NCBI RefSeq assembly: GCF_010093065.1
Contig: NZ_CP048113.1
Location: forward strand, 6,962,001 to 7,026,000
Source: Chitinophaga agri
GTDB taxonomy: Bacteria > Bacteroidota > Bacteroidia > Chitinophagales > Chitinophagaceae
Direction: 5' to 3'
Length of the DNA: 64,000 nucleotides
Positions 2,602-61,756 of this stretch are shown piece after piece. Numbering within the stretch: the first letter of the stretch is position 1; the number at the start of each line of letters is the position of its first letter. The notes beneath the pieces are model-generated. The model did no database searches and had not been told where the DNA came from. It was given only the letters and a program-made list of their open reading frames with translations. The translations under genes were made by a program, and so were the position numbers.

Positions 2602-2618
2602 TTAAGGAGGAAAAATTA

Positions 2619-2939: not shown

Positions 2940-2968
2940 TCGATAACCTCACAACATTGTAACAATAC

Positions 2969-4169: not shown

Positions 4170-4172
4170 CTA

Positions 4173-6020: not shown

Positions 6021-6034
6021 AATAGGGAGGTAGA

Positions 6035-6083: not shown

Positions 6084-6093
6084 AAAAGCCGAT

Positions 6094-6126
6094 AAAAAGC
6101 AAAAGGTCGGAGACTTCTCCGACCTT
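6094..6126 (-). terminator. Intrinsic terminator of tRNA-Leu
   Basis: A perfect 10-bp stem (6103-6112 / 6117-6126) with a 4-nt loop is followed on the minus strand by a T-rich tract. It lies 10 nt beyond the tRNA 3' end. Confidence 0.8.
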
Positions 6127-6136
6127 TCCGCTTTTG

Positions 6137-6220
6137 TGCCCAGAACTGGATTCGAACCAGCACACCCTTGCGAGCGCTGCGACCTGAACACAGTGCGTCT
6201 ACCAATTTCGCCATCTGGGC
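6137..6220 (-). tRNA. tRNA-Leu (anticodon CAG)
   Basis: The minus-strand sequence folds as a class II tRNA of 84 nt. It has acceptor stem GCCCAGA/TCTGGGC with discriminator A, D-arm with ATTGGTAGACGC, anticodon stem CTGTG/CGCAG with loop TTCAGGT (anticodon CAG at 6184-6186), a long variable arm CGCTCGCAAGGGTG and T-loop GGTTCGAATCC. CCA is not encoded. The putative integrated island begins at its 3' side. Confidence 0.97.
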
Positions 6221-6284
6221 ATCTTTGATTTCCGTGTCAGGGAGTGCAAATGTATAATCTTTTTTTAAACCAACAAATTTTTTT

Positions 6285-8909
6285 TCAAATCCCACTTTTC
6301 AACAGCCCCAGCGGGAACATTTTAAACACATCATTGACCAGCAATTGCCCGCCACTATTCACCGTCTCCCCGGTGAAGATATTCTTCCACGTCCCCGGAG
6401 CACCCGCAGGTAACAATACCGCCCCATCTGCAGGAACATCTCCTGGAAGAGGTATTACTACAACAATCCATTCCTGGCGATGCACTCTTGCATAGGCAAT
6501 GATCCTGTCATTATTGGTTTGCAGGGGCAGGTAATCACCATCAAGGAAGATATCCGGGTGGGACCGGCGGAAGGTTAATGCCTTCCAGGTGACGAACATT
6601 TTCTCTAACCCGGTGGAACGATTGGAAGCGAGATAGGCAAAAAAGCCAGGCTCTTTTTCTTTAGCGATGATGGTATCGAGACACTGTTTCCGGAGAGGGT
6701 AGTCTACCGGACGACGGTTATCAGGATCAACATAGCTATAATCCCAGAGCTCACATCCCTGGTAGATGTCAGGAATGCCCGGGGCAGTGATTTTTATCAG
6801 CGCCTGGGAGAGTGAGGCGGAGAATGCATGTTGATTGATGGTGCCAACCAGCTCATGGGTGGCAGACAGGAAACTATCGTCTGTCAGCAGGCGCTGGATG
6901 AGTGCTGTTGCATTGTTTTCATAAGCCTCATCTGGTGCGGCCCATGTAGTATTTACTTTCGCTTCCCGCAGGGCTTTGATGATATACTGTTGTAAACGTT
7001 CGGTGAATGCAGCAGTCACCTGGCCATCCGGAGGAAATCCCGCGATAATGGACTGATAAATGAAATACACGTCATTGGCAGTGAGACTGCTTGAATAGGT
7101 TTCCCTCCATGCCGCAACCTGCTTCTTCCATACCCCCGGTAGGAGAGACAGCATATTCAGGCGTATACGACCATCTTCTCCGCGTTTCGTATCATGAGTG
7201 GCTGTTGTATTCAGTGAGGCCGGTGTATGCTGCTGACGGGCCGCTAAACGCTGATGGAAGGTATTGACAGAAAAGTCGCCTATCGACGGACTATCACCTA
7301 CCTCATTATGAGAAAGCAATGCATTGTACACATAGAAGGTCGTATCCTCTACGCCTTTCGCTGTTACAGGACCGGTAAACTGCATCAGGCGTTGCAGGAA
7401 TAACAGCCTGTTCTGTGCCCGTTCCTGATCCGGGATCTCTTCCCACAGTGCTTCCAGTAGGCCGATAGCCGCTTCCGCCTGCCGGTTCACGGCACGTATC
7501 CGGGTGAAGGTAGTATGGATGATCTCCTGCGCATAGTCGTCAGGCGGGAATTGGGACGGGTAGAGGCGGTATATCGGCAGGCAAACAACAAACAGCCCGA
7601 TAGCTTCTTTTAAAAGCTCCCGGTCCGTGCGCGCATCGGCCAGTTTTAGCGTGTAACAGTAACGTACCAGGTTCTCCCATTCACCCCCCATGTATCGTTC
7701 CAATATCAGCCTTTTCTTCTCATCGACGATATCCTGATAGGCCGGGCTCTCAGGTACCAGTTCCTGATACCAGGCTGCCAGCTGGTTTTCCCCCTCCTTA
7801 TTGGTCAGCAGGTGATTCGTAAAAGAAAGGAACTCATAACCACTGGTGCCCTGTAATGCCCAGTCGGAAGGGATACTTTCCTCACTCTCCAGTATCTTTT
7901 CCGCAATGAGATAACAATTGCTGCCAAACAATATCCTTAGCCGCTGTATATAGGTCGCCGGATCACGTAGTCCGTCTATATGATCAATACGCAATCCCTG
8001 TATCAGTCCCTCACGGTACAAACCATGCAGGAAGGTATGGTATTCATCAAACACAGCGGGCGACTCCATCCGCAGTGTAATAAGTTCATTAACGGTAAAG
8101 AAACGGCGGTAGTTGATCTGCGTGTCAGCTTCCTGCCAGCTGCACAGATAATAATACTGTTGCTGCATCAGCTGTAATAATAATGCCTTGTCTTCACTGA
8201 TCTTCGCCGCTACGCCTTCCAGGACGGGCCGATTCGCAGCTGCATACAGTTCCTTTTTCACCTGGTCCCATTCTTTCAGCGCGATCCCTTTGGTACCTTG
8301 CTGATATAGATCATTAAACAACCTGCTTACCGGCAACGCATCACTGTCAATCAACATCGTTTGCAATACATCGTACGCGGCGATCGATAATGGAAACAGC
8401 TGCTCAAAATAACTGATGGCAAGTCCTTTCTCTGTATACACCAGTTTAATTTCGCCATCAGCAATACATGCTTCCAGTGATTTTCCCAGGAAAGGTGTCA
8501 TCAGCCGGCCAGCCAGTTCAGGGGATGGATGCTGCCAGTCTATATCAAAATATTCGTAGTAGGGAGATAACGGTCCCCGCTCCATGACGTCATATAAGCG
8601 GTGATTGCTCATGTGAAATGCCATATGATTCGGTACGATGTCCTGCAACCAGGTCATGCCTTTTTCCTGCAACAGTTTTCTGATCTCCCGTAACTGCTCC
8701 AGTGTGCCAATAGCAGGATTGATCTGATGCGGTTCTGTTACATCATAACCATGCATACTTCCGGGCGATGCCGTGAAAATGGGCGCAGCATAGATCGTTG
8801 AAATGCCCAATTGATGCAGGTAGTCCAGTATCTCTTTCAGGTCATTAAAAGTAAAGCCCGCATGCAGCTGCAAACGGTAAGTAGCGGACGGTGGATTAAA
8901 CGATTTCAT
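6285..8909 (-). CDS. treY: Malto-oligosyltrehalose synthase
   Basis: 874 residues, GH13 fold. It isomerises the reducing-end alpha-1,4 bond of maltodextrins to alpha,alpha-1,1, forming maltooligosyl-trehalose. Family landmarks visible: PPSATYRLQLHAGFTF at the N-terminus, DIVPNHMAF, GLRIDHIDGLRDP with the nucleophile Asp, LIAEKILESEE with the acid/base Glu, and NTTATHDTKRGED near the third carboxylate. The preferred start is ATG 8909 (MKSFNPPS), because the frame upstream belongs to the preceding gene. The start overlaps the treZ stop by 14 nt, implying translational coupling. Cytoplasmic, no signal peptide. Works with TreZ (next gene) and probably the debranching enzyme at 12837. Confidence 0.95.
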   Translation of the reverse strand: MKSFNPPSATYRLQLHAGFTFNDLKEILDYLHQLGISTIYAAPIFTASPGSMHGYDVTEPHQINPAIGTLEQLREIRKLLQEKGMTWLQDIVPNHMAFHMSNHRLYDVMERGPLSPYYEYFDIDWQHPSPELAGRLMTPFLGKSLEACIADGEIKLVYTEKGLAISYFEQLFPLSIAAYDVLQTMLIDSDALPVSRLFNDLYQQGTKGIALKEWDQVKKELYAAANRPVLEGVAAKISEDKALLLQLMQQQYYYLCSWQEADTQINYRRFFTVNELITLRMESPAVFDEYHTFLHGLYREGLIQGLRIDHIDGLRDPATYIQRLRILFGSNCYLIAEKILESEESIPSDWALQGTSGYEFLSFTNHLLTNKEGENQLAAWYQELVPESPAYQDIVDEKKRLILERYMGGEWENLVRYCYTLKLADARTDRELLKEAIGLFVVCLPIYRLYPSQFPPDDYAQEIIHTTFTRIRAVNRQAEAAIGLLEALWEEIPDQERAQNRLLFLQRLMQFTGPVTAKGVEDTTFYVYNALLSHNEVGDSPSIGDFSVNTFHQRLAARQQHTPASLNTTATHDTKRGEDGRIRLNMLSLLPGVWKKQVAAWRETYSSSLTANDVYFIYQSIIAGFPPDGQVTAAFTERLQQYIIKALREAKVNTTWAAPDEAYENNATALIQRLLTDDSFLSATHELVGTINQHAFSASLSQALIKITAPGIPDIYQGCELWDYSYVDPDNRRPVDYPLRKQCLDTIIAKEKEPGFFAYLASNRSTGLEKMFVTWKALTFRRSHPDIFLDGDYLPLQTNNDRIIAYARVHRQEWIVVVIPLPGDVPADGAVLLPAGAPGTWKNIFTGETVNSGGQLLVNDVFKMFPLGLLKSGI

Positions 8910-10782
8910 ATACGATAGCTGAGAATGGTTGTAAAGAGATAGCAGAAGAGGTAGTAGCTTCGTCTGGTGCCAGTGTGCCCGGACCATGCCAGATGGCTGC
9001 CGAAGAGTCAAACTTCTTCTGTAATGTGCCTGGTCCCGTGTATTGATAGGGTACTACATGATCACTGAAGTTGAATAAGATAAGCAGCCTGTCATCACCA
9101 CCGGAACGCTCAACAAGTAATAGTTGCTCTTCCGCCTGCGGGATCAGCACTTTCACACTGTCTCTGGTGGTATTTCGCATGGCTTGCCTTGTTCTGCGAA
9201 AGGCGATCAGAAAACGATAGAGTTCTATCAATGCAGCACCTGTCTCCGTCTGTGTCTCCCAGCTTAGTGTAGAATTATCAAAAGTCGTTATCTCCTGTGG
9301 CTCGGGTACTTCTCCTTCCCAGGCAAAAGATGCAAACTCTTCTCTGCGTCCATTGGTAACCGCTGCAATCAGGTCTTTATCACTATGGCTGGTGAAAAAC
9401 TGGAAAGGCTTTGTCTCTCCATATTCCTCTCCCATAAATAGTAAAGGTATATGTGGTGATAATAGCACAGTTGCTGCTGCCAGCTTTTGTGCCTCGAAGG
9501 AAACCTGCGTCGTCAGTCTGTCTCCCAGCATCCTGTTGCCGATCTGATCATGGTTCTGTGCAAATACAACAAACTGATGATAGGGGAGATCTCCTGGTGA
9601 TGCACCAAAATGCCTTTTACGCACATCAGAGTAGGCGCCGGTGAAAACGTAAGAGTCCTGAAAGGATTTGGCCAGCGGTGTTAGTCCGCCGAAATCTGCA
9701 TAGTAACCATTCACTTCTCCTGTCAGCAGACTATGCAGCGCGTGATGAAATTCATCTACCCACTGACCATGCATCCCATAGCCTCCTTTTTCCCGCGGCA
9801 TAATATATCTTGGACTATTCAGATCAATCTCAGCTATCAGGAATTTCTTACGGCCCGACGTTGCCTGCAATGCGTCCACCAGCTCAGACAGTTCTGCTGT
9901 AAAATGATTGGCGCCGCAATCCCAGATCGCATGCACAGCATCCATCCTTAATCCGTCGATATGGAATTCGTCCAGCCACATGAGTGCATTTTGGATAAAG
10001 TATGCACGCACAGCATCACACCAGGCATCGTCAAAATTTAATGCCGGGCCCCAGGGTGTTTTATACTTATCCGTAAACCACGGACCATATTGAGAGAAAT
10101 AATTACCTTCTGGTCCCAGGTGATTGTATATCACATCCAGGATCACAGCAATGCCATGTTGATGTGCGGCGTTGACCAGTGCCTTTAATCCATTAACACC
10201 TCCATAGGAGTTTTGTACAGCAAACGGATAAACACCGTCATATCCCCAGTTCCTGTCGCCAGGAAATTGTCCTACCGGCAGGATCTCAATCGCCGTAATA
10301 CCCAGCGAGCGCAGGTGATCCAGCTTGTCAATAACACCCTGGAAATTATGCGTCCCGGAAAAAGTACCGGTATGTAATTCATAGATGATCAGTTCGGACA
10401 TATCAAGCCCCGTCCAGCTATCGTCCGTCCACTCAAAATTGCTGTCTACCACTGCTGATGGACCATGCACTCCTTCCGGCTGGTACCTGGATGCAGGGTC
10501 AGGTAATGTGACCTCCTCGTCTAAGACATATTTGTACTGTGTTCCTGAAGAGAGCCCTTCTACACTTGTGTGCCAGTAACCCTTATCATCTGGCTGCATA
10601 GGGTGGATCTGCGGCTGCGGTGCTATGATTGATAATGAGACCTGCTTTCGGAAGGGTGCCCAGACGCTGAATTTACATGTACTATCGGACTGTATAGCAG
10701 CCCCTGCAAAAGGATAAATATTTGCCAAAGTATTTTTTAACGTGAGAAGTGAAAATAATATGCCAGTGATGTGTGCCGCCAT
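8896..10782 (-). CDS. treZ: Malto-oligosyltrehalose trehalohydrolase
   Basis: 628 residues from ATG 10782. It releases trehalose from maltooligosyl-trehalose made by TreY. An N-terminal beta-sandwich (about 25-115, with FSVWAPF) precedes the GH13 barrel. The catalytic positions are D281 (IDGLRMDAVHAI), E318 (FLIAEIDLNSP) and D412 (FAQNHDQIGNR). The WGYDGVYPFAVQNSYGG segment is typical of TreZ and branching enzymes; lack of extra modules and partnership with TreY favour TreZ. The first about 18 residues are poorly family-like, so a TTG start at 10728 (LANIYPF) is possible. It leads the treZ-treY unit and is divergent from the alpha-glucosidase gene at 10940. Confidence 0.93.
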   Translation of the reverse strand: MAAHITGILFSLLTLKNTLANIYPFAGAAIQSDSTCKFSVWAPFRKQVSLSIIAPQPQIHPMQPDDKGYWHTSVEGLSSGTQYKYVLDEEVTLPDPASRYQPEGVHGPSAVVDSNFEWTDDSWTGLDMSELIIYELHTGTFSGTHNFQGVIDKLDHLRSLGITAIEILPVGQFPGDRNWGYDGVYPFAVQNSYGGVNGLKALVNAAHQHGIAVILDVIYNHLGPEGNYFSQYGPWFTDKYKTPWGPALNFDDAWCDAVRAYFIQNALMWLDEFHIDGLRMDAVHAIWDCGANHFTAELSELVDALQATSGRKKFLIAEIDLNSPRYIMPREKGGYGMHGQWVDEFHHALHSLLTGEVNGYYADFGGLTPLAKSFQDSYVFTGAYSDVRKRHFGASPGDLPYHQFVVFAQNHDQIGNRMLGDRLTTQVSFEAQKLAAATVLLSPHIPLLFMGEEYGETKPFQFFTSHSDKDLIAAVTNGRREEFASFAWEGEVPEPQEITTFDNSTLSWETQTETGAALIELYRFLIAFRRTRQAMRNTTRDSVKVLIPQAEEQLLLVERSGGDDRLLILFNFSDHVVPYQYTGPGTLQKKFDSSAAIWHGPGTLAPDEATTSSAISLQPFSAIVYEIV

Positions 10783-25541: not shown

Positions 25542-27500
25542 TTATCGTAACAAATTGATGGCTCCTTTTTTAACTACTTGTGTTTTGTCATTCATAGTGA
25601 TCCTGATGGTATAGGTATACACACCCGAAGGCTGCAGCTTACCGTTATAGGTACCATTCCAGCCAGTCAGCTGATTCGTCTGATAGATCAGTTCTCCCCA
25701 TTGATTGAATATTTTCATATCAATAGCTGAGATGCTGGTACCCTCCGGTTTGAAATAGTCATTCTTGCCATCTGCATTTGGCGTGAAGGCATTTGGAATG
25801 AAGATCTCACCCGGTTTAGGTTTAGCACTGGCCAGCCCCGGCAGACTGTTCTGACAAGCCTGAGGGCCGAGTGCGATGACCTTTATATTGATAGATGTTT
25901 GTGTGGTAATGCCGGTTACAACGTGTGTTGTGCCCATATTGCCGCTGCTCGGTGCTGCATAGGGACTGCCATCCACAGATACAATATATCCTGTTGCGCC
26001 TGGTACAGGGTCCCAGTTGAAGGTCACACCTGTACTCGTGATGGTACCGGCTTTTACAACAGGCGTAACCGCCCTGTCATAAGTGGTAACCGTCACCGGT
26101 GTTCTGTCGCTGGCGCAGGGGCCGTTGACTGCTTCTACATACCAGGTGGTCGTTGTACCTACCGGTGGCGTAACAAACGTATCTCCATTGCCTTCTACGC
26201 TACCGCCCGATGGGAAGGTATACCAGTTGTAGGTGAATGGTGTTGTCGCATTGGTGATCTTCAGGGTAATGGTGCTGTCCGGACAGATCGTCTGTGCAGT
26301 GATCAGTGGCGCCGCTGGTTTGGTAGTAACAGTGATCCTGATACTATCTATAACCTGACATCCATTCTCGTCAATACCCACCAGTTTAAAAGTAGTAGTG
26401 GTGTCAGGGGTAACGGTAAAGCTGGAATCTGTTCTGCTGCCTGGTTCCCAGGTATATGACTGCATACGGCCACCGGTAGGGATCGCCCAGAGTTTAGTGG
26501 CTGTACCGGTACAAAGATCACCTGGTTTAGCCAGTGCCTTCAGTAATATCATGGACTCTTCACTTACATCTGCTGTGAAATCCGACGGACATCCATTTGC
26601 GTCCGTAACGGTCACTGTATACGAGCCTGCAGGCAGGTCCGTAGCGGTTTCCGTCGCCTGTACCGGCGTGGTGTTCCACACATAGCTGAGGGGGAATGCA
26701 CCGCCTGTAGCCGCAACAGATACACTGCCATCGCTATTGCCACAGGTAGCCTTTACCACGTCAGTAGTGGCTACAATAGGCTCAAACGCCTGACCGGATA
26801 CTGCCAGGAAGACCGCCCTGGAAGAATTGGTAAAGTCGCCGCTCTGCACATAATTGATGGTCACAGAGGCAATGTCTTTTGCCTGCAGGTCACAGGGAGG
26901 AGCTATATCAATACAATAGATACGTGGATCGTTGGAGCTGAGGCCTTCTACACTGTAGGGCCCCGCCGGCTGCCTTTTGATACGGCCGTAGCTGTCGAAC
27001 ACGGGGTTGATCCCGCCGAACCAGTCCAGGATGCTGGAAGTGTCCGGAACGGAACTCGTGCCATCGGTATAGTTGAAGGTAATAGAAACCGTACTTGTCT
27101 GCTCCGTAGAGTAGCACAGGAAACTGATCTTGCTGTAGGCGCCGGGCGTAACAAACGTCAGGGTATCAATGCCGGTGGTATTAGCGACATTCCCGTTCTT
27201 TGAAAGATAGAGTACGTTGTTGCCTGTATAATCGGCCATCTGGTAGGTACGTAACCCCGTTGTAAAAAGACCATCATTGGGAATACCCGCCTGCAGACCA
27301 TTAAGCGCTGCGAAGTCAAAGGTATAGAGGATCTTTTGCTGGATGTCAAGTCCTGTAGTGGTGACAGCCTGGGCATCCAGGCCGGCTTCCGCCACGCCAT
27401 CATTGTTGAAACCCGTTACGGCTATAGGCGTATAGGTTTGTGCGTATAACCTGCAGGCACAGATGACCAGCATGGAGGCAACAATAAGAACACGTTTCAT
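25542..27500 (-). CDS. T9SS-exported protein with SprB-like repeat and CHU_C domain
   Basis: 652 residues. Signal peptide (MKRVLIVASMLVICACRLYAQ), then an N-terminal beta-rich domain of about 220 residues shared with the next gene's product, a SprB-type repeat (about 245-310: ATCGNSDGSVSVAATGG...LPAGSYTVTVTDANGC), Ig-like and Fn3-like segments (about 320-550), and a C-terminal gliding-motility-associated CHU_C domain (about 563-652: IFIPNAFTPNADGKNDYF...NQWGELIYQ...GVYTYTIRI) ending in LLR. CHU_C directs export by the type IX secretion system and surface attachment (type B). It is a probable surface adhesin or matrix protein; ligand unknown. 33 nt downstream of its paralogue. Confidence 0.9.
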   Translation of the reverse strand: MKRVLIVASMLVICACRLYAQTYTPIAVTGFNNDGVAEAGLDAQAVTTTGLDIQQKILYTFDFAALNGLQAGIPNDGLFTTGLRTYQMADYTGNNVLYLSKNGNVANTTGIDTLTFVTPGAYSKISFLCYSTEQTSTVSITFNYTDGTSSVPDTSSILDWFGGINPVFDSYGRIKRQPAGPYSVEGLSSNDPRIYCIDIAPPCDLQAKDIASVTINYVQSGDFTNSSRAVFLAVSGQAFEPIVATTDVVKATCGNSDGSVSVAATGGAFPLSYVWNTTPVQATETATDLPAGSYTVTVTDANGCPSDFTADVSEESMILLKALAKPGDLCTGTATKLWAIPTGGRMQSYTWEPGSRTDSSFTVTPDTTTTFKLVGIDENGCQVIDSIRITVTTKPAAPLITAQTICPDSTITLKITNATTPFTYNWYTFPSGGSVEGNGDTFVTPPVGTTTTWYVEAVNGPCASDRTPVTVTTYDRAVTPVVKAGTITSTGVTFNWDPVPGATGYIVSVDGSPYAAPSSGNMGTTHVVTGITTQTSINIKVIALGPQACQNSLPGLASAKPKPGEIFIPNAFTPNADGKNDYFKPEGTSISAIDMKIFNQWGELIYQTNQLTGWNGTYNGKLQPSGVYTYTIRITMNDKTQVVKKGAINLLR

Positions 27501-27533
27501 TCAATTGTATTTTTGGTTGATACTAAATTTTAT

Positions 27534-29981
27534 TTACCGTAGCAGCGCGACCCATCCTGTGTAGGGCTTTTCGCCTGCTGTTGTTTTGATGACATAATAG
27601 TAGGTGCCTTCCGGAAGTAGCTGTCCCTTCCTGGTACCATCCCATGCGATGTAACCAATGCCGGTGAAGACGAGCTGTCCCCAGCGGTTGTAGATCTCTG
27701 TTGTCGCCTGTGGTCTTGCCTTCAGACCATCTATACTCCATCTGTCGTTGACGCCGTCTCCGTTAGGGCTAAATACATTCGGAATATCCAGTACAAGGTC
27801 CGGCGTTACAATGTACCAGGCGTGGCTGATACTGTCGGTACAGCCTATTTCATTCGCTGCGTAGAGGGTGACCCGATAGCTGCCGGGCAGCTGGTATTTG
27901 TGTTGCGCGTCTTCTGTATTGGCTGTGTTGCCATCTCCAAAATCCCAGGTGTAGTTTGTTGCAGATTGTGAGCGGTTATTGAACGTAAACGAACCGTTCT
28001 TAAACTCAACAGGTACATTCTCGCCCGGTGCGGCACTGAAGTCTGCTACCGGCGGTTCCTGTATATTGATGTAAGCTGTTTTTGTAATGGTGCTGGAACA
28101 CATACCTTCCGCAGTGGCTGTTAACGATACCGTATATGTACCTGGTGCAGTGAAATGCGCCACGGGGTCTTCTTCACTGATCACCGGACCATATCCCAAA
28201 GACCATTGATAGGCATCTGCACCCTGCGTCTGATTGGCAAAGCTGATCGCCGCAGGTGCACAGGCATTGGTGATATCTGCCGTGAATGCCGGTATTGGTA
28301 ACGGTATAGCCGTGATGGCTGCCGGGGTTGCGGTATCGGCGCATACACCATCCTGTATGGATAATGTGACGATAGCACTCCGCTGATAACGGACAGTATA
28401 TGGCCCGTACCCGCTGCCACGCTGTACTGTGCCGCCCCCGAAGTCCCAGGTAGGAACAGCCGCAGGACCGTTGTTACCGGTAAAAGTGATGATAGTAGAC
28501 CCTCCTGCACACACTGGTGTGTTGCTGACTGTGAATGTGGCCAGCGGCGGTTGTGATACCGTGATATCGTGCGTAATGACAGCTGATGTACAGCCGTCTT
28601 CCGTTACCTGCAACTGTACCGGATAGTGTCCTGTAGCATTGAACTGTATGGCGTATGGTCCTGCACCGGTACCATTTTGTATAGTGGCGCCAGCAAAGTT
28701 GTGCCAGTTGTAAACGGCATTGGCGGCTGCTGTACCAGAGAAGGTGATCACATTCCCTGTTCCCAGGCAGACACTCGCCGGTTGAATGGTGAAGTCAGCG
28801 ACAGGTGCAGGTTTAACCGCAACTTCGACTGTATCGGTGATGGTACATCCGAAGGCATCCTGTGCGGAGACAACATAGTAAGTGGTGTCGGCAGGTGTAA
28901 CGGTTGTCGTGCTGCCGGTATAGGTGCCTGGAGTCCATGAATAGTCGCTGACGGCCGCTCCGCTGGCAGTAACAGACAGGGTAGCGGTCTCACCTGCGCA
29001 AATGGCTGCCGGGGTAGCGGTAGCCGTCAGCGTGGCCATTGACAACGTTGCTACAGTATCTCTTACTGTGGTGACGCAGTTATTCGCATCTGTAATGGTC
29101 AGTATATAATTCCCACCTGGTAATCCGGTAGCGTTGGGCGTTGTTTGTACAGGTGTCGTATTCCAGGAGTAGGAGAGAGGGGGCGTACCGCCGGAAGTAG
29201 CGACAGTAATACTGCCACTGGCGCCACCACAGGTAGCGTCAGTAGCTGTCGTGCTGACGGTGAGCGGAGAGAATACTACACCGGACAGCCCTACGATCAG
29301 TGCCCTGGAACTGATGTTAGGCCCCTGTATATAAACAAAGGAAACGGAACTCACCAGTTTCGACTGATCCGCACAGGGGATGTTAAAATCAAAAGCATAC
29401 ATGCGCGGATTGCCCGGTAATCCATCAACGGTAGGCGACGTAGTGGTGCGTGTCAGGCGGCCCATCCCGTTAAAAATAAAGGGGGTACCATAGAACCAGT
29501 CCGTGATCTGGAGCGTACCGGCATTGGCCGACGTACCATCCGTGTAATGCAGCGTAGCGATCACTGTACTGTTATCTTCCGTACCGAATGCCAGTATACT
29601 CAGTTGACTGTACATAGCTGGCGTAGCGAGTGTCAGCGTGCCTGCCGCCAGTGTGTTCGGTACATTGCCATTGGCAGAAAGATATAAGCCGTTCGCAGCA
29701 GTATAGGGGCTCATCTGGTAGGCACGGTTGCCACTGATGAAAAGACCGGAATTGATAATACCGCCGTCAAGACCATTGGCCGCAGCGAAATTCTGGGTAT
29801 ATAAGATATGATTGCTGGCATCTATCACCGTAGAGGTCACAGCTACCGCATTGGTACCCGCTTCCGCCACAATATCTGCGTTGTAACCTGTAACGGGTAT
29901 CGGTGTAAAAGTTTGTGCATACACTAACTGCGTGCCGGTATAAATGAACAATAATAGGGTAATTGTAAAGATGCGCTTCAT
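27534..29981 (-). CDS. T9SS-exported PKD-repeat protein with CHU_C domain
   Basis: 815 residues. Signal peptide to VYAQ (about 23), an N-terminal domain paralogous to that of the neighbouring protein (QTFTPIPVTGYNADIVAEAG versus QTYTPIAVTGFNNDGVAEAG), a SprB-like repeat (about 245-310), several Ig/PKD-like domains (about 320-725; the last with NYTWDFGDGNTANTEDAQHKY) and a C-terminal CHU_C domain (about 728-815: IPNVFSPNGDGVNDRW, YNRWGQLVF, WDGTRKGQLLPEGTYYYVI). Exported by the T9SS and displayed on the surface. The pair arose by tandem duplication followed by expansion of PKD domains here. Confidence 0.9.
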   Translation of the reverse strand: MKRIFTITLLLFIYTGTQLVYAQTFTPIPVTGYNADIVAEAGTNAVAVTSTVIDASNHILYTQNFAAANGLDGGIINSGLFISGNRAYQMSPYTAANGLYLSANGNVPNTLAAGTLTLATPAMYSQLSILAFGTEDNSTVIATLHYTDGTSANAGTLQITDWFYGTPFIFNGMGRLTRTTTSPTVDGLPGNPRMYAFDFNIPCADQSKLVSSVSFVYIQGPNISSRALIVGLSGVVFSPLTVSTTATDATCGGASGSITVATSGGTPPLSYSWNTTPVQTTPNATGLPGGNYILTITDANNCVTTVRDTVATLSMATLTATATPAAICAGETATLSVTASGAAVSDYSWTPGTYTGSTTTVTPADTTYYVVSAQDAFGCTITDTVEVAVKPAPVADFTIQPASVCLGTGNVITFSGTAAANAVYNWHNFAGATIQNGTGAGPYAIQFNATGHYPVQLQVTEDGCTSAVITHDITVSQPPLATFTVSNTPVCAGGSTIITFTGNNGPAAVPTWDFGGGTVQRGSGYGPYTVRYQRSAIVTLSIQDGVCADTATPAAITAIPLPIPAFTADITNACAPAAISFANQTQGADAYQWSLGYGPVISEEDPVAHFTAPGTYTVSLTATAEGMCSSTITKTAYINIQEPPVADFSAAPGENVPVEFKNGSFTFNNRSQSATNYTWDFGDGNTANTEDAQHKYQLPGSYRVTLYAANEIGCTDSISHAWYIVTPDLVLDIPNVFSPNGDGVNDRWSIDGLKARPQATTEIYNRWGQLVFTGIGYIAWDGTRKGQLLPEGTYYYVIKTTAGEKPYTGWVALLR

Positions 29982-52916: not shown

Positions 52917-55900
52917 TTATTCTATAGTAATTGCTGTACCAGATATCCAGTGTTTGAATTCCGGCGTATAATATAAGTACACAGTACTTGCTTTTCCTTT
53001 GTAATTGCCGCCTATTTCTGCTTTCAGGTCAAAGTTGACCGTCTTTGTTTCTCCCGGTGCAAATCCCATCCAGTACAACACCAGGTAGTTGTCGAATATT
53101 TCATAGTATGCGATCTTCTCCTGTTCCAGGATCTCTTTCAACTGCCATGGCTGTACGGTAAGCCCTGCCGGAATACCCACTTTCGCAATGCTCATCGGCT
53201 GAAGGATATCTTTGGTGTTCGTAACTTTTACCTGCATCCGGACTGTTTCACCCACCCTGGTACTCGAGTCCGAAAGACTGGTGGATATTTTTAATTCTGC
53301 CTGAGGATCGGTAGGGGGAAGGGATGTATAGTAGGCCAGTTCCAGCTGATAAGGCGCATTGATGTTTTCGTCTTTATATCTGATAGAAAAGACGTTGTTA
53401 CCATCCCTGATGTTATCAACTGCTGATTGTGGCTGACTACCTAGGAAGACGGTTTTGTTATTTACTTTGATCTCCATCTGGGAGGCAGCTATTTTATCTC
53501 CTATTATTTTCTGATATTCGACTATTGCCTGTAATGCGAGTACTGTAGCCTGTGTAGAGCCATAGCCGTAATACTTTTTCTCCTTCATGATGCCTGTTAT
53601 CAGGTCGGCAATGGCCCCCATATCAGGCGTTTGCTCCTTCATCAGGGCCAGGGCATATAGAGCAATGGTCTCTACACGCAGAGAAGTGTTTCTTGAGTTT
53701 GTTACACTTGTTGCTGATTGCAGTTTCGCCTGTTTAGCTGCTGATAATAACTGGTTAAAGTCATTCAGCTGACCCATATGATGAGCAGCGAGTGCCATCA
53801 TGGATGACAGGTAAGCATCCTTGCTTTCCATGGCCTGTTTGACAGCGGTGTTATATTCTTTCTGTATCTCTGTCTTCACACCCGCTGCTGTCAAAGCATA
53901 AACAATGTAGCAACCGGCAATGTGATCCGGAACAGATGCAAAAGCGTCCAGGCCCTGTTTATGGATCTGAAAGTTACCTTTGCCATCGCGACGGCTGAGC
54001 AGGAACTTCTTCGTACGCGCCAGCATCTGTTTGTCTACATGGAGGAATTCGCTCATAGCTGTAAATTCCAGTAAGCCATAGGCTGTCAATGCTTCATGCG
54101 GTGGCGTACGACCAAACCATTCGAAGCCGTTTTGTGCTGTCTCAAAGCCTATCAGCCGCTTGTAGCCCGCTTTAAGATAGTCCATGGCCTTATTCTCTAC
54201 TGTCAGATTACGGTTCCCGGAATTACGCAGGAACCTGAGAATATAGATGTTGGGATAGGTGGTGGATGATGTTTGTTCAAAACAACCATATGGCTCTCTA
54301 AGCATGGATTCGATATCGCTTAGTAACCGGTCTTCTATTTTATTAAAGACCTTTAGCTCGGTCGCCAGGGTGCCTTCCATCATATGATCAACTGTAAACT
54401 TTGTCTCGGAGGATTTGTTGCCTGATAGTGTCGTGATAACAGGAAATCCATTGCTGACTATTTTTACCGGAAGGGAAATAAATTCTCTGCGTTTATCTGC
54501 TGTAACGATGAATTCGAAATTGCCCTTTACAGCAGATTTAGCTTTTACTGTGATCAGGACCTGTACTGAACTGTCGGCCGGAACACTTACTGAATCAGGA
54601 TGAGGCTCCTGCGTAACATTATAAGGTAGCAGTGCCAGGACTTTCGCAGTGACCGCCTTTTCAGTATTATTCCTGATGACAAGCGGAATGCGTACCACAT
54701 CTCCCGTTGTCATATAAGGTGGTATTTTAGCATCTACCATTAATGGAGACTTCACCGAATAGGTCTTTTCACTTCTGCCCAGTTTGCCGTTATACCCAAT
54801 ACCCTCAGCTATTGCACGAAATGTTGTGTTAGCATCAGAGTTGTAAAACTCCACAGTGGCATCTCCTTTATTATCAGTCTGTACCACCGGATTCCAGTAA
54901 ATAGTTTCTCTGAAATCATCCCTCACCTGGGTCTCAGGAGAAAGATATTTTGGTGCATAGAAACCTTTTGTAACGGTATACCTGTCCTGTTTAAGCTGAA
55001 TCGCTTTTGATGTATAATAGTAAGTCGGCTCTAAATTAATAATGGTAGATGGATAGTTCTCTTTCCTGGAAGTGATCAGTATGACGCCGTTTGCGCCCTG
55101 GCTACCGTAGAGTGCCGTTGCTGAGGCATCTTTTAGAATGGTAATAGAAACAATGTCCGCAGGATTGATCGCATCAGATAACTTGTCAACAGGAATACCG
55201 TCCAGTAGTATCAGCGGCTGATTGCTGTTTGAAATGGATTGTGATCCTCTGATATGAAACTCGTCGCTGTTGTAGAGCTGATTAGTCTTAATTTCGAGGC
55301 CGGCTACTCTTCCATACAACATGTTGCTTACGTTCGTAACAATTTCCTGACTGTTCACGGTCGTAACTGCACCCGCCAGTTGTTGTTTTCTTTGCGTACC
55401 ATACCCGATCACTACTACTTCTTCCAGCTTTCTATCTGCATCTTTGGCCCACTCCATAACATCCTGTTTGGGTATATCCAGTGCGAAGAATCCGTTCAAT
55501 CCTTTGTCAATGTTCTTATTTACGTCAGCCATTAGCGGCGCTGGCAGACGATCATCAGCAAACGGATCTTTTAGTTTTTTTGCTGGTGTGGGAATGTATT
55601 CAGCTCCCTGCATCACTCCCCTGATATAGACATGTTCTTTTTTATTTACTGAGCGGGCCATAATATAATAGTTGGCCGCTGGTGTTATATCGGTAAAGAA
55701 GAACTTGCCGTCTTCTCCTGTTTCCTGTTTAATGATCTTGCTGGCTGCTGTATTGTTTTTGTCGAAGCTACGGATGAGATATACAGTTGACTTAACCGGC
55801 TTGTCATTGATGTCGGCTATCACACCGCTGAGTATATTACTTAGATCAGCTCCGAATTTGGGCTGTCCGGTTCTTTCCACATGATCGATATAGTCAAAAT

Positions 55901-57455
55901 ACCGATAGCCATGTGTTAGCATCACCAGGTCGAGTGATGATGCCGCTGCTTTTTTGTCTTGCCTGAAATAGAACTGTGGTTCTTCTATCTTTCCATGCAG
56001 CTCTGAGCTCATGAGTAGCCAGGAGAGAATATGGTCCTGCTTATCATCTGCCAGTGACCATAATTTGTCATCTATCACAGTGAGTGAGAAATTTGATGCA
56101 ACAGGCTGTCCCGTTTCGTCAACTGTTTTCAGGTGTAGTGTTACTTTTTCTCTGGGCTGGTATCTCTCTTTATCAGTAGTGATCTTTACATTCAGTATCC
56201 TGTCGGCATGCAGGAATACGATCCTTTCCGCCAGTGGAATACGTGTTGCTGTAGTAATGGTAAATCTGGCGATGCCGGTGGGGAATGTAGCCGGATCTAT
56301 TTCTACCACCTGTGTACCTTTTTGCAAAGAGAGTTCCTTGTAATAATGCACATCGTTTTTACTTTGGGCTACCAGTCTGATGTCAATATCCCGGGTGGTC
56401 GTAATACTCACCTGCAGCAGCTTTTCCTTGCGTCTGATATGCATCACCAGTCCCTGTCTGGAAACGGCTGGCAGATCAAAATGCTGCACTACACCGGCTG
56501 GTTTAAGCAATACTGCCCTGTAACTTCTTCCTTCCTGCGGGGTAAACGCTACCTGTCCCATGCCATCATGTGTACTTTCAAAAGAGGTGATAGTATTATT
56601 CAGCTCATCCTTTATCAGACCCTTTACATCCGCTGGTTTCCCAAATTCATTGATCGCCTTGAATGCAACGTTAGCAGGAATGCCCGCGATAAATGTTCCA
56701 CCTTCCGGCATGAATTGCAGGTCAATTTTATTCACTATGATTGGAATGCTTCTGGATATGGCTTCCGTATATCCATCAACATTAACGGTGACATTCAATA
56801 AACCGTCGCTGGAATTTAAGTCAGCCGGCAATTTGAAACGGATAGCTGCCTTGCCACGGCTATCTGTTCTAACGGCATCCGTTATAATGGTTTGCCCCTG
56901 TATCGAAACAGTGTATTTCGCGCTGTATCCCGGAATCGGGCGATCCCCCAGGTCGCGGATAGCATAGGCAGCAGTCACTTCATCACCGGGGCCATAACCT
57001 TTTTCAGGAAACTCGAGTTTCATGAGTACCCTCGGAGCAAGTACGCTTTGTACAGTGATCTCTTTTGTGAACCACGTATTCTCTTTTTCATTCTGCATCC
57101 AGTTAGAATAAGCCCTGATCTTATACATACCGCCGGGCACTTCTTCGCCGAACTGAAAACTGCCTTCAGCGTATCCATCTTCTATATGATAGTTCTGTTT
57201 CTCAACGATACTTCCTGACGGACCAATGATCTCTACATACACTACGTTACTCAGTACAGAGATGAAGTTGTTTTTTGCGTTCACCAGGTATATCTTAAAG
57301 AAAAGTTCTTCACCTGGTTTAAAGAATACGTGATTCGTCTGTATATATATCTTCTCTTTGTTTTGAGCGTAGTCTGCAAGTTGCCCTTTACTGCTGCCAC
57401 AAAGGAGTAGCAGTATCAGCATGAGTAGCTGAAATCCTTTTATATTATTCTTCAT
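52917..57455 (-). CDS. Alpha-2-macroglobulin with an inserted SusC-type TonB plug module
   Basis: 1512 residues from ATG 57455, 4 nt after the barrel stop; the in-frame ATG 57479 lies inside the barrel gene. Signal peptide to about residue 24. MG1/MG2-type domains (about 36-240; IYIQTNHVFFKPGEELFFKI) and further MG domains to about 530. A carboxypeptidase-like beta domain (about 541-607; LSGVIADINDKPVKSTVYLI, GEDGKFFFTDI). A SusC-type plug (about 677-798): LEEVVVIGYGTQRK, GRVAGLEI, FHIRGSQSIS, PLILLDGIPVD, ILKDASATALYGSQGANGVI. Then the A2M domain (about 848-920) and a thioester motif GCFEQ (C1058, Q1061) in a TED-like helical region (about 1040-1330), with a terminal MG domain. The plug sits in the bait-region interval between the MG and A2M domains. 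Probably outer-membrane associated; no lipobox seen. Confidence 0.9.
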   Translation of the reverse strand: MKNNIKGFQLLMLILLLLCGSSKGQLADYAQNKEKIYIQTNHVFFKPGEELFFKIYLVNAKNNFISVLSNVVYVEIIGPSGSIVEKQNYHIEDGYAEGSFQFGEEVPGGMYKIRAYSNWMQNEKENTWFTKEITVQSVLAPRVLMKLEFPEKGYGPGDEVTAAYAIRDLGDRPIPGYSAKYTVSIQGQTIITDAVRTDSRGKAAIRFKLPADLNSSDGLLNVTVNVDGYTEAISRSIPIIVNKIDLQFMPEGGTFIAGIPANVAFKAINEFGKPADVKGLIKDELNNTITSFESTHDGMGQVAFTPQEGRSYRAVLLKPAGVVQHFDLPAVSRQGLVMHIRRKEKLLQVSITTTRDIDIRLVAQSKNDVHYYKELSLQKGTQVVEIDPATFPTGIARFTITTATRIPLAERIVFLHADRILNVKITTDKERYQPREKVTLHLKTVDETGQPVASNFSLTVIDDKLWSLADDKQDHILSWLLMSSELHGKIEEPQFYFRQDKKAAASSLDLVMLTHGYRYFDYIDHVERTGQPKFGADLSNILSGVIADINDKPVKSTVYLIRSFDKNNTAASKIIKQETGEDGKFFFTDITPAANYYIMARSVNKKEHVYIRGVMQGAEYIPTPAKKLKDPFADDRLPAPLMADVNKNIDKGLNGFFALDIPKQDVMEWAKDADRKLEEVVVIGYGTQRKQQLAGAVTTVNSQEIVTNVSNMLYGRVAGLEIKTNQLYNSDEFHIRGSQSISNSNQPLILLDGIPVDKLSDAINPADIVSITILKDASATALYGSQGANGVILITSRKENYPSTIINLEPTYYYTSKAIQLKQDRYTVTKGFYAPKYLSPETQVRDDFRETIYWNPVVQTDNKGDATVEFYNSDANTTFRAIAEGIGYNGKLGRSEKTYSVKSPLMVDAKIPPYMTTGDVVRIPLVIRNNTEKAVTAKVLALLPYNVTQEPHPDSVSVPADSSVQVLITVKAKSAVKGNFEFIVTADKRREFISLPVKIVSNGFPVITTLSGNKSSETKFTVDHMMEGTLATELKVFNKIEDRLLSDIESMLREPYGCFEQTSSTTYPNIYILRFLRNSGNRNLTVENKAMDYLKAGYKRLIGFETAQNGFEWFGRTPPHEALTAYGLLEFTAMSEFLHVDKQMLARTKKFLLSRRDGKGNFQIHKQGLDAFASVPDHIAGCYIVYALTAAGVKTEIQKEYNTAVKQAMESKDAYLSSMMALAAHHMGQLNDFNQLLSAAKQAKLQSATSVTNSRNTSLRVETIALYALALMKEQTPDMGAIADLITGIMKEKKYYGYGSTQATVLALQAIVEYQKIIGDKIAASQMEIKVNNKTVFLGSQPQSAVDNIRDGNNVFSIRYKDENINAPYQLELAYYTSLPPTDPQAELKISTSLSDSSTRVGETVRMQVKVTNTKDILQPMSIAKVGIPAGLTVQPWQLKEILEQEKIAYYEIFDNYLVLYWMGFAPGETKTVNFDLKAEIGGNYKGKASTVYLYYTPEFKHWISGTAITIE

Positions 57456-57459
57456 CGTC

Positions 57460-60084
57460 TTAGAATTGATAGGTAACATTAAATCCGAAGGTCTTTACAG
57501 CAGGAAGGTTGAAGTAGTCCAGTCCCGTGGTATTGGGTTGATCGTATAGTAATTGTCCCGGATCTGCGCCTTTGTACGGAGACCATAAAAGGATGTTCTG
57601 TACATAGGTCGCCAGATAGAAGAGTTGATGGCTTTTTTTGAGATTTATTCTATAGGTGATGTTGAATGTATTCAATCTGATGTAATCGGTGCGCCGGATA
57701 TATTCTTCTGCAATACCGGTCAGGCCATTCCTGGTCCAGCGGTTAGACGTTACAGGCTTTGCCGGATCATAGAATACAACAGGTATATCATTCACATGTC
57801 CATCCTGTTTTACACCCTGGAATACATAACCTGTTGTATTCCTTTCTGCGCCTGTCGTTGCCGAACGGCCATAGTAATCCAGCGCCGCCTGTGTTCCATT
57901 CCATGCCTGACCACCTTTTTTCCACTCCAGGTTGGTTTGTACAGAGAATTTTTTCCAGAAGATGGTATTGCTGGCTTTTATGACAAAATCAGGAATGGTA
58001 TTACCTATTACTTTTGGTGACTGATCTGCCAATGGAAACCCATCGTCTCCGATAACAATATTGCCGGCTGCATCTCTTTTGTATGCATTTCCCACTATCA
58101 CGCCCAGGGGTTGCCCTTCTACCAATGTCTTGTATACACTGCTGAAGCCCGCAATAGGCGTATAATTATATCCATCACGCACTTTGGTGACATCTGTACG
58201 GTATTTGAAGAACGACAGGGTGGTGTTTGTATTTATATTTCTGCTGATGGACTTATTATAAAGATGTATAGACAGTTCCAGCCCCTTCGTTGTCATATCA
58301 GCCATGTTCTTCAGCTGTAACTGACCATTTTCATATATAGGGAGCACATCGTTGCTGATATTTTTAGTATAAAAATTACCATCCAGATAGATGTTTTGGT
58401 AGGAAAGGCTGAGTTTACCGTTCCATTCCTTCGCCTGTATGGGAGACAGCTGGCTGTATCCGTTGACTTCCGTTACCGGTCTGTAGTTGAATAGCTGGCC
58501 GGGTGTATACTGTAGCAGATTGGTATAGGTAAGCGATTTATTGATTTGCAGTTCACTATTGACAACGTGATAGGAAGATGACAGATCCAGTACGAGATCA
58601 CCTGGAAGATCATCAAATCGGAAGCCAAGGTCCAGTGCAGGCAGGAGGAAACTATTCCTGCTGCAGGTATTGGAGATATAGGCTTTATTACCCGTGTTCA
58701 GTTTGATGGTGATGCCCCTTGCTGTGTAGGTGCTGGCCATATTCAGGAACAGGTCTTGTGAGGTACGCTGATAGTTGTAGGTTTTGTTTTCCGGCAGATA
58801 AGCAATGCGTGTATTGGCATTGCCATAAATATGATGCAGCTGGGCTTTTGTTTTAAAATGATTGTTGTTGTATTCTATCTCCCTGACTACATTGGACTGG
58901 ATCATATACAGCCGGTCACGTTTATTTCTGTCAGTATACATGCCTGCATTCCATCCGGAGGTACCGGGCCTGAATTGTTCGATATTATTTTCCTGTTTAT
59001 CATTCAGTGACTGTATCATACCTGCCTGCCATTTCCTTGTCTGCAGGGATAAGGTGAGTGCGGCATTATGTTCGTGTTCTTTATATCCGTTATCGTTATC
59101 TCTGAGCAGGAACCAGGGATTATCGGCCTCTGCGCTATAACTCCGTTGTCCTTCGCCTAAGGTTACCTGTTGCTGATTGTCGAATGTGGCTGGCGTAAGC
59201 AGGGCGTTCTGATACGCTCTGTTCAGTATGCCGTTTCGGTTGCCGGTAGTTCGGATCTCCTGGCTGAACATGTAGGTTCCCTTTACGGTCAGCCATTTGA
59301 TATTTGTGCTGATATCGCTGCTCAGACTGTTAGAGGAGCCTTTGTTTTCCCGGATGATGAACTGTTTGTCTTCGCGTGCCAGCTTCAGATTAAATGTCCA
59401 GGTACGGTGACCATATCGGTGCAGTGCTGACTGGATTTTCATTTGATGTGAATGAGACAGCGCCGGACGGAAGATATCTTCTGTGTATATATTCGCTGCT
59501 TTGCCATTTCCCTGGCCGGATGGGACCAGTTTTCCGTATTGATCATAGGGATAGGGATTACCGTCAAATTCAAGTGAGCTCACTGCCGGGCCGTAGCTGA
59601 ATAATTCTCCTGTTTCGGGTCCTCTCCATTGCAGTGAACCATTATCTGACCTGCCCTGTGCATAGGTTTCCTGCAAGCGGGGCATTCTGTTATGGGTCTG
59701 TAACTCAATGGTGCCACTATAGGAGCCTGATAGGGTTATATAACGGCTTAAAGACGGTGATATCTGTATTTCATCACCAGTGGTCTTCAGTCTCCTTATA
59801 GCTACGTTAGGCGAGAATTGTCCTTTGAGTGTGTAGGTTGTATTTCTCGCATTCGCGACAGAATCCACAGGATCAATGCCACCCCTCAGTTTTCTGATCT
59901 GTTGCTGATAGTCCTTCGATACGACATGATCTACCCGGGTCTTTACCTGGGCAGTCAGTAGGGTTGGGAAAAAGAGAAGGAGTATAGTGTATTTCAAGGT
60001 ATCAGATTTTAGGTTACATAAATATAGATTTATTCTCCTGGTTGATATGCTGACTGTATGATGCACCAATTTTTCTGATTCCAT
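57460..60084 (-). CDS. SusC-like TonB-dependent beta-barrel protein lacking the plug domain
   Basis: 874 residues from ATG 60084; a TTG start at 59997 fits better, since it gives a compact signal peptide (LKYTILLLFFPTLLTAQ) and 845 residues. The mature start (about 46-110) shows no carboxypeptidase-like domain, no plug and no ALYGSRAANGVI motif. From about 110 the sequence follows SusC barrels: SGSYSGTIELQTHNRMPRLQ, ETYAQGRSDNG, NIYTEDIFRP, and the late NAYKRDAAGNIVIGDDGFP, WRRNG-like NRWTRNG and RRTDYIRLNTFNITYRI. It ends FGFNVTYQF, a typical OMP terminus. The missing plug is found in the next gene's product, 4 nt downstream. No SusD-like gene lies nearby. Confidence 0.88.
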   Translation of the reverse strand: MESEKLVHHTVSISTRRINLYLCNLKSDTLKYTILLLFFPTLLTAQVKTRVDHVVSKDYQQQIRKLRGGIDPVDSVANARNTTYTLKGQFSPNVAIRRLKTTGDEIQISPSLSRYITLSGSYSGTIELQTHNRMPRLQETYAQGRSDNGSLQWRGPETGELFSYGPAVSSLEFDGNPYPYDQYGKLVPSGQGNGKAANIYTEDIFRPALSHSHQMKIQSALHRYGHRTWTFNLKLAREDKQFIIRENKGSSNSLSSDISTNIKWLTVKGTYMFSQEIRTTGNRNGILNRAYQNALLTPATFDNQQQVTLGEGQRSYSAEADNPWFLLRDNDNGYKEHEHNAALTLSLQTRKWQAGMIQSLNDKQENNIEQFRPGTSGWNAGMYTDRNKRDRLYMIQSNVVREIEYNNNHFKTKAQLHHIYGNANTRIAYLPENKTYNYQRTSQDLFLNMASTYTARGITIKLNTGNKAYISNTCSRNSFLLPALDLGFRFDDLPGDLVLDLSSSYHVVNSELQINKSLTYTNLLQYTPGQLFNYRPVTEVNGYSQLSPIQAKEWNGKLSLSYQNIYLDGNFYTKNISNDVLPIYENGQLQLKNMADMTTKGLELSIHLYNKSISRNINTNTTLSFFKYRTDVTKVRDGYNYTPIAGFSSVYKTLVEGQPLGVIVGNAYKRDAAGNIVIGDDGFPLADQSPKVIGNTIPDFVIKASNTIFWKKFSVQTNLEWKKGGQAWNGTQAALDYYGRSATTGAERNTTGYVFQGVKQDGHVNDIPVVFYDPAKPVTSNRWTRNGLTGIAEEYIRRTDYIRLNTFNITYRINLKKSHQLFYLATYVQNILLWSPYKGADPGQLLYDQPNTTGLDYFNLPAVKTFGFNVTYQF

Positions 60085-60196: not shown

Positions 60197-61756
60197 TTAT
60201 TTTCTAACAGCAGCGGAGTCAGTTGCCGTCGTGCAATTACAAAGTGCTACCTGGTCTCTCACCCGGTCAGCCTCTATGGCGATTCGTTTTTGTTCGGCAG
60301 TTAGCTGCAGCTTGTTAATTTTTAATGTAAGATCTGGTAGTCTCAATCTTTTAATTTCTTCATAGATCGTTTTTTCATCTGAAGGCTGGATCGCTATATC
60401 AATTATCTGCTTCTCTTCAATAATAAAACGTTTCGAACCAAAATATAGCTGCGCTTTACCGGTATTTTCTGCAAAAGAGACCACAAAGGCTTCTGCTCCC
60501 AATGGAAGTGATATTTCGCCGTCGTTTTTGTAGAATCCGTAGGTCTTCCCGTCTTTTTGCAGTCCACCCTGGAGCACAACCTTTTCAGCCGGGATCAGCA
60601 GGAATACGGCGACGTTCTGGTCTTTCATCTCATTGACAGTTACGGAAAGGTGGCAGGGGCTGAAGCCTGGCAGGTCCTTCGTCAGGACATCTATATTATA
60701 CCATCCCGGCGCATTGATAGTGAAATTATAATATACACCAGTTTTCCGTTCGGGTATTACCTGATCTGGTGCTGGCTGAAGGGGGGTGAAGATAATTTCG
60801 TCTCCACTTACAACAGATGGGAGAGAAATCCCGGTCTGGCTGAAGGAATTCACAACCGTAAATTCCTGACCTTCTCTTGCGCCAGTCAGATCAGCTGCCA
60901 GTTGTACGACCGTTTTATAATAAGCACAGCTGTCCGGGTCAAATGCATGTTGATTACTGTCTTTATATTCCGGATGTTTTTGCGATTCATCGTCAATGTA
61001 TGCAAACAATGCGTCCATATCATCTTTGGTAAAAGAAATGAAATTTGGCATTACCTGTTTGTTAAATGCATAGAAAAGATTCGCCGCATAACAATGTCCG
61101 CTTGCAATCATTTGTGAGCTGTTCGATATAAATGCATAAACGGTGGTAGTATCATATTTCCATCTTTCCATTACATTCGCCAGTGCAGGTCCGGTAACCT
61201 GTCTGGTCACGTTGTGACAGGACATACAGTTCTGTTCAAATAATGCCTTGCCATAGATCTTCTTCTTTGCATTTTCCTTTTCCTGTTCCTGGACTGGCAG
61301 TGGTTTGGGGTCTTTCCAGTCAATACCTGACGCTTTTACTTCACCCTTGTAGAGCTGCATGCCGTCTACTATTTTGCGTGCCGGTATCTTTACTTTTACC
61401 GGCTGATTGAAGCTGAGTTTACTGTTATCGGCTGTATTGATGTAGATCATCCCACCACTACTGAGCGGCTCTCCATTACTTTGCGTGCGTAATCCTGCAG
61501 CCAGTATTTGTTCGGGAGTAAGTGCCTCCTTTACTTCCAGTTTAGCGATCTTACTGCCGTCAATATGTAACGCGTTTGCGGGAATCGTTAAGATAGTTCC
61601 ATCATTGAGTGTTACAGTCGTATCTCTCTCTGTATTGATCTCCAATAGCTGAGAAGGGAGTTGAGATGCGTTCAGAAATGTGGGTACAACAGGTAGGGTG
61701 TTACAGCCTGCTAACAGGAATAGCAGACCGCAACAGGTACGGGACATCTTGTTCAT
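60197..61756 (-). CDS. Cytochrome c domain lipoprotein
   Basis: 519 residues; lipobox LLAGC (Cys18). Residues about 35-130 form a beta domain with TIPANAL, of the kind found in many Bacteroidota secreted proteins. About 165-265 is a mono-heme cytochrome c with CMSCH (C177, C180, H181) and a probable distal Met in KQVMPNFISF. The C-terminal half (about 290-460) is beta-rich and Ig-like, and the end is a charged helix. It is located in the periplasm or at the outer membrane. Its redox partner is not evident, and the association with the downstream barrel/A2M genes (same strand, but with a terminator between) is only positional. Confidence 0.85.
   Translation of the reverse strand: MNKMSRTCCGLLFLLAGCNTLPVVPTFLNASQLPSQLLEINTERDTTVTLNDGTILTIPANALHIDGSKIAKLEVKEALTPEQILAAGLRTQSNGEPLSSGGMIYINTADNSKLSFNQPVKVKIPARKIVDGMQLYKGEVKASGIDWKDPKPLPVQEQEKENAKKKIYGKALFEQNCMSCHNVTRQVTGPALANVMERWKYDTTTVYAFISNSSQMIASGHCYAANLFYAFNKQVMPNFISFTKDDMDALFAYIDDESQKHPEYKDSNQHAFDPDSCAYYKTVVQLAADLTGAREGQEFTVVNSFSQTGISLPSVVSGDEIIFTPLQPAPDQVIPERKTGVYYNFTINAPGWYNIDVLTKDLPGFSPCHLSVTVNEMKDQNVAVFLLIPAEKVVLQGGLQKDGKTYGFYKNDGEISLPLGAEAFVVSFAENTGKAQLYFGSKRFIIEEKQIIDIAIQPSDEKTIYEEIKRLRLPDLTLKINKLQLTAEQKRIAIEADRVRDQVALCNCTTATDSAAVRK

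Follow-up and report, generated by a model that had tools for sequence, protein, structure and literature searches.

An alpha-2-macroglobulin that carries a receptor plug beside a plugless SusC-type barrel in Chitinophaga agri: a candidate natural split TonB-dependent receptor

TonB-dependent receptors have been studied as single chains. To our knowledge, plugs supplied in trans exist only as engineered constructs, and we know of no natural TonB-dependent receptor with its plug in trans. Among the bacterial alpha-2-macroglobulins (A2Ms), ECAM is described as anchored in the inner membrane and linked to Pbp1C (PMC4498604). Here we analyse two adjacent genes in a 64,000-nucleotide stretch of the Chitinophaga agri contig NZ_CP048113.1 (hereafter, the window), which encode a SusC-type barrel without a plug and an A2M that carries one. 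Judging from their sequences, the two proteins probably constitute one SusC-type TonB-dependent receptor distributed over two polypeptides, that is, an assembled, TonB-coupled trap seated in the outer membrane. No description of an A2M-plug protein or of a natural split TonB receptor was found in the open-access literature (titles and starts of abstracts, among the matches listed; subscription papers and preprints lay outside this search). Names given in the databases include "TonB-dependent receptor plug domain-containing protein", "MG2 domain-containing" and "alpha-2-macroglobulin family". The parts on which the argument rests are the following.

52917..57455, minus strand: gene of the A2M with thioester domain (TED) and plug, 1512 aa (Pfam, NCBIfam, alignment)
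55605..55835, minus strand: carboxypeptidase-regulatory-like (NTE-like) domain of the A2M, residues 541-617 (PF13620 in homologues; strands in the AlphaFold2 (AF2) model)
55410..55427, minus strand: TonB box LEEVVV of the A2M, residues 677-682 (alignment)
55083..55388, minus strand: plug domain of the A2M, residues 690-791 (PF07715, E 3.6e-14; TIGR04057; 5fq6_B 9-173)
57456..57459, minus strand: gap of 4 nt between the barrel stop codon and the A2M ATG (57455)
57460..59997, minus strand: gene of the plugless SusC-type barrel, 845 aa from a TTG (a longer open reading frame (ORF) runs from the ATG at 60084)
59743..59946, minus strand: N-terminal segment of the barrel protein, residues 18-85, partly disordered, standing in place of NTE and plug
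57463..59742, minus strand: TonB-dependent-receptor beta-barrel domain, residues 86-845 (structural alignment)

The pair jointly shows the layout of a TonB-dependent receptor, with a TonB box and then a plug in the A2M and the barrel in its neighbour. The two profiles tiled a single SusC chain, 5fq6_B, of which the A2M covered 9-173 and the barrel 160-984. The parts matched are complementary, and PF07715 found the plug in the A2M only. NCBIfam also placed the SusC signature TIGR04057 on the end of the A2M plug (7.5e-16), and TIGR04056 reached 166.9 bits on the A2M, below its cut-off of 368.25. The NTE-like domain, the TonB box and the plug are placed between MG6 and MG7, in the same order as in SusC. 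For comparison, the TonB box of BT1763 is given as VDEVVV (PMC7782687). The sequence-only reading had proposed that the A2M carries the modules missing from the barrel, at about residues 541-798. This held for the plug, whereas the carboxypeptidase-like part (about 541-618) gave no Pfam match in the window A2M even at E 1; PF13620 matched 5 of the 11 members of the A2M alignment, the window A2M not among them, and the AF2 model has a beta domain at this module.

The ORF reading of the window gave a barrel ORF of 874 aa on the minus strand (57460-60084). The TTG at 59997 is the likelier start, since the 845-aa protein read from it has a signal peptide ending in LLTAQ. The AF2 model (pLDDT 90.8, pTM 0.84) adopts a barrel fold, and residues 86-845 align structurally with SusC and with other TonB-dependent barrels. 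The Plug, NTE and barrel models of Pfam all failed to match this protein, the sole match being a sub-threshold MGP3_C; NCBIfam gave no match, TIGR04056 not being reached. The description of the barrel as SusC-type and devoid of plug and carboxypeptidase-like domain is therefore confirmed. A cryptic plug was sought by Pfam and AF2 and none was found: the N-terminus ahead of the barrel, with about 68 residues and partly disordered (pLDDT below 50 at residues 18-26 and 38-50), is too small for a plug. Pfam detected no Plug in the 11 barrels of the window-family alignment, nor in further paired barrels (3/3 and 7/7); in all, the scan covered the barrels of 20 of the 22 genomes that hold the pair (all but G148 and G653, where contig ends cut into the locus), and none had a Plug. 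Residues 18-85 are a short segment with some conserved positions (V/Y in the barrel alignment), where NTE and plug have been replaced in window-type barrels, and this segment is a possible docking peptide for the A2M.

The distribution of the pair was surveyed in three overlapping samples, comprising 244 genomes of the window's family (thresholds 1e-60 for the barrel and 1e-100 for the A2M), 345 of the phylum (1e-60) and 199 of a Flavobacteriaceae-type family, that of genome G262 (A2M 1e-150, barrel 1e-60). In the window's family the barrel occurred in 11/244 genomes and the A2M in the same 11; the genes were adjacent on one contig in 10, and in the eleventh (G148) both stop at contig borders. 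The A2M profile matched 27/345 genomes of the phylum sample, five of them with TED-length matches. Four of these five carry a plug, and the same four hold the plugless barrel, adjacent. The fifth, the TED-containing A2M of G370, has two carboxypeptidase-like domains in place of a plug, and no barrel lies beside it. Two more barrel-profile matches of the phylum sample fell in long SusC ORFs, in G328 (with its own plug) and in G394. In the family of G262 the A2M was present in 10/199 genomes and the barrel profile in 28, and the same 10 had a short barrel ORF adjoining the A2M (491 aa, cut, to 1007 aa), the remaining barrel matches lying in ORFs of 1015-1121 aa. Seven short barrels of this family have an NTE and no plug, whereas the three long relatives checked have both; of three further paired barrels, two have an NTE and none a plug.

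Altogether, 22 distinct genomes, the window's included, hold the pair, adjacent in every case but one, where contig ends intervene. All 22 A2Ms have a plug by Pfam, that of G262 being read from domains precomputed for an identical protein, P0241, and 21 have a TED, the A2M of G653 being cut after the plug. The G262 A2M is 100% identical to a Flavobacterium limi protein, and Chitinophaga ginsengisoli (L021) provides a 23rd locus. A pair is also recorded for Chitinophaga pinensis (P0008/P0143), each protein being given with a contig of 9,127,347 bases. The 23 paired barrels formed one clade (100/100) in a barrel tree built without the SusC L135, which has no plug-end motif for cutting. An in-frame A2M ATG lies 3-5 nt past the barrel stop codon in the 14 loci examined, exactly 4 nt in 11 of them, and the remaining flanking genes mostly differ between loci. 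Because the arrangement recurs in 22 sampled genomes, it is not due to chance; the co-occurrence and adjacency that the sequence-only reading had proposed to survey were strict in all three samples. A frameshifted or otherwise broken single SusC gene and an assembly artefact were both considered and rejected, since 22 genomes share the split and the plug lies within the A2M. The A2M family comprised 1754 proteins at E <=1e-60 among 7997 scored candidates, possibly including relatives without a TED; one-piece barrel-A2M fusions, judged by length, were absent from the best 120 of the 1754 matches. Most of the 45 barrel-A2M pairs analysed below came from a comparison of 82 of the best 120 barrel matches with 119 of the best 120 A2M matches. 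In it, 31 barrels had the same source-contig size as an A2M, 21 of them on contigs >20000 bases, and we infer that a barrel and an A2M so matched lie on one contig.

One important question is what becomes of the plug when the barrel is missing. TED-less MG2-plug proteins of 755-929 aa carry a degenerate plug and TonB box. No genome of the phylum sample whose sole match is a TED-less form contained the plugless barrel (E 1e-60), and the ORF lists showed none beside such forms (9 loci with wide flanks plus 3 in the window's genome); two receptor-like ORFs near them (L090, L094) carry plugs of their own according to Pfam. G686 is kept in 39/45 barrel-paired A2Ms vs 0/27 TED-less forms, V681 of the TonB box in 42/45 vs 7/27, and P747 in 45/45 vs 16/27, with a smaller drop at R736 (44/45 vs 21/27). 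The comparison covers the 27/27 TED-less ORFs from loci that passed the profile filter, seven further short matches without a locus lying outside it, and its Fisher p values ignore kinship; the TonB-box alignment analysis used 70/77 rows. The strongest argument for a plug that still functions as such in the pair is the loss of these sites in barrel-less forms. An A2M-plug gene generally lacking a plugless barrel beside it would have spoken against the pairing; this was not the case for the TED-containing forms, and it was true of the shorter TED-less relatives, whose plug is degenerate. TED-less MG2 proteins with a degenerate plug-like insert were also seen at L078 (5066-7552), L079 (6203-8662) and L080 (5568-7835), and several families of the phylum sample contain related proteins.

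Several results weigh against a plug working inside this barrel. In a mirror-tree analysis of the 45 pairs no co-variation of plug and barrel was found, the correlation (r 0.38) being the lowest of eight A2M segments; the partial correlation was 0.045, a value undercut by two segments alone, the post-plug linker (0.031) and the TED (-0.36). MG1-MG6 distances followed those of the barrel (r 0.95, partial 0.80), and because of this partial value, probably a consequence of the deep Flavobacteria/Chitinophaga divergence, the control is a rough one. Compared at the same barrel identity, plugs of the A2Ms resemble each other less than those of one-piece SusC proteins do (0.46 vs 0.63 in the 0.45-0.55 bin; 0.42 vs 0.56 in a second bin). 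Poor correlation and divergence together suggest that the plug may face a weaker or changing constraint. The plug tree, computed without L135 and the A2M L111 (in which Pfam does find a plug), gave no support for an origin of plug and barrel from one SusC, its branching being unresolved. Plugs may be exchanged, since the A2M P0291 and an ordinary SusC (L097:11744-14767) have plugs that share 62% identity. Finally, the isolated plug was modelled by AF2 with low confidence (block means 43-63).

The lack of co-variation would fit a plug that stays outside the barrel, the barrel being closed in some other way and the adjacency of the genes reflecting another joint task, as would the occurrence of plug-bearing TED-less MG2 proteins without such a barrel. 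We regard this as very improbable in view of the complementarity of plug and barrel, the G370 control, the degenerate plugs of barrel-less forms and the small N-terminus of the barrel. A loosely constrained plug sequence is also what might be expected if the barrel were an immobile socket for a permanently seated plug, which merely keeps the A2M under the membrane, with no role for TonB. No lipobox was seen by eye in the 11 aligned A2Ms, so that without such a peg the A2M would be unattached in the periplasm, and lipid anchors hold other bacterial A2Ms in a parallel manner. However, the TonB box stands out by its conservation (0.75) from an adjoining unconserved linker beside the plug (41-63 residues, 0.30), and barrel-less relatives have mostly lost it, which makes a pure anchor unlikely. 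The tether after the plug has a nearly fixed length of 45-47 residues.

The A2M part of the protein bears on what the pair might do, and its further features are these.

57384..57455, minus strand: signal peptide of the A2M, ending before Q25 (Q25 in 11/11 aligned A2Ms)
54639..54905, minus strand: MG7 / A2M domain, residues 851-939 (PF00207)
53514..54323, minus strand: thioester domain (TED), residues 1045-1314 (PF07678, E 1.1e-26)
54273..54287, minus strand: thioester motif GCFEQ, residues 1057-1061 (11/11 aligned A2Ms; 45/45 barrel-paired forms)

MG2, Plug, MG7/A2M, TED and A2M_recep scored above the Pfam cut-offs, and bMG10 and the bait-region domain below. PF07703 (bait region) reached 18.2 bits against a cut-off of 22.7, with its C-terminal part only, and matched 3 of the 11 A2M homologues at E 0.001. 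The plug cassette occupies the segment where other A2Ms hold the bait region, and the match to human A2M resumes past it (VRDDFRETIYW vs VRKYFPETWIW). By sequence, both proteins of the 11 aligned pairs have apparent SPI-type signal peptides followed by Q, which fits the Q-rule described for Bacteroidetes (PMC5837995); some Flavobacterium-type A2Ms (e.g. L088) have a hydrophobic N-terminus without this Q. The pair might alternatively be a nutrient or peptide receptor in which the A2M, as an adaptor, takes over the substrate in the periplasm and traps no protease. SusC relatives import glycans and peptides, and the A2M gene occupies the position after the barrel that in susC loci usually belongs to susD. 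GCFEQ in 45/45 barrel-paired forms points instead to covalent chemistry, and the scan of four flanking window genes showed neither SusD nor a polysaccharide enzyme; we therefore consider such an importer decidedly unlikely.

The sequence-only reading had a plug delivered in trans couple TonB energy to an A2M protease trap or to import of its prey; supported here are its sequence-level parts, namely the plugless barrel, the plug in the adjacent A2M, the strict pairing and the retention of plug and TonB-box residues in paired forms. In the preferred reading of a receptor divided between two polypeptides, signal peptidase I would process both proteins on export, after which the barrel would enter the outer membrane and the A2M remain periplasmic. 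Since both ends of the plug face the periplasm in known receptors, the A2M is placed below the pore: its plug would insert into the barrel from below, in trans, leaving the A2M hanging there. TonB would then pull the TonB box, draw the plug out and open the pore. Assembly and extraction are plausible, as a plug in trans restores function in engineered FpvA (PMC10994204) and displacement of the entire plug from SusC has been described in vitro (PMC7782687). Triggering of A2M follows the retraction of its cleaved bait region from a channel (PMC9352918). With the plug in place of the bait here, a pull on it or a cut in the linker would release the A2M, and the thioester might then bond what is at the pore; conjecturally, this would most likely be a protease or else a protein that uses the pore. 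It is possible, and we propose it only tentatively, that pore opening and thioester firing are one event, brought about when the plug is withdrawn by TonB force or after proteolysis; the pair would then be an outer-membrane-docked, TonB-powered trap, a complement-like protein gated by the machinery of a nutrient receptor.

The four flanking window genes gave Pfam matches to a cytochrome-c-like protein, DUF4349, an endonuclease and a possible beta-helix protein. The cytochrome-c-domain protein (60197-61756) lies upstream of the barrel on the same strand; of the loci viewed, only that of the close relative L021 has a similar-looking neighbour. Elsewhere in the window (25542-29981), two neighbouring proteins have CHU_C domains of type IX secretion, one of them with SprB and PKD repeats.

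If the proposal is correct, a natural split receptor would allow plug insertion, plug extraction and TonB force to be studied separately, and bacterial macroglobulins would be seated in the outer membrane and might draw on a source of energy there. A C3-like domain insertion would have recruited part of a receptor.

Compared with the SusC/RagA transporters (BT2264, BT1763, RagA), the pair shares the barrel fold and sequence and the order NTE, TonB box, plug, here on the partner. It differs in that plug and TonB box lie on another polypeptide, that no SusD was found among the window neighbours scanned and that the barrel gave no TIGR04056 match. With type I bacterial A2Ms (ECAM/YfhM, SaA2M) it has in common MG domains, a TED with CxEQ, MG7 and a C-terminal MG domain; unlike them, it carries a plug cassette in place of the bait region, and neither a lipobox (by eye) nor a PBP1c gene among the window neighbours scanned was seen. 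The window's genome also encodes an ordinary type I A2M (L101, G000:C1:4193000-4206000, 1359-9451; 1865 aa, CxEQ) with a PBP1c-like gene directly after it, and a third large A2M-like protein (L102, G000:C1:5412000-5426000, 2684-8872; 2062 aa) with CxEQ somewhere in the chain and no plug match. The TED-less MG2-plug proteins of Bacteroidota resemble the window A2M in their MG domains and in an NTE/plug-like insert before MG7, but they are shorter, have no TED, are degenerate in plug and TonB box and have no plugless barrel partner in the phylum sample. The type II A2M MagD of Pseudomonas aeruginosa likewise has operon-encoded partners (PMC5764988), but it forms an inner-membrane complex and has no thioester, and TonB goes unmentioned in that paper. 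In engineered split FpvA the plug is also supplied in trans and transport is partly restored (PMC10994204), whereas that system is artificial and its plug is a free domain. Complement C3, finally, also holds a whole domain (C3a/ANA) in the place of the bait region (PMC9352918), while the domain inserted here is a receptor plug with its TonB box.
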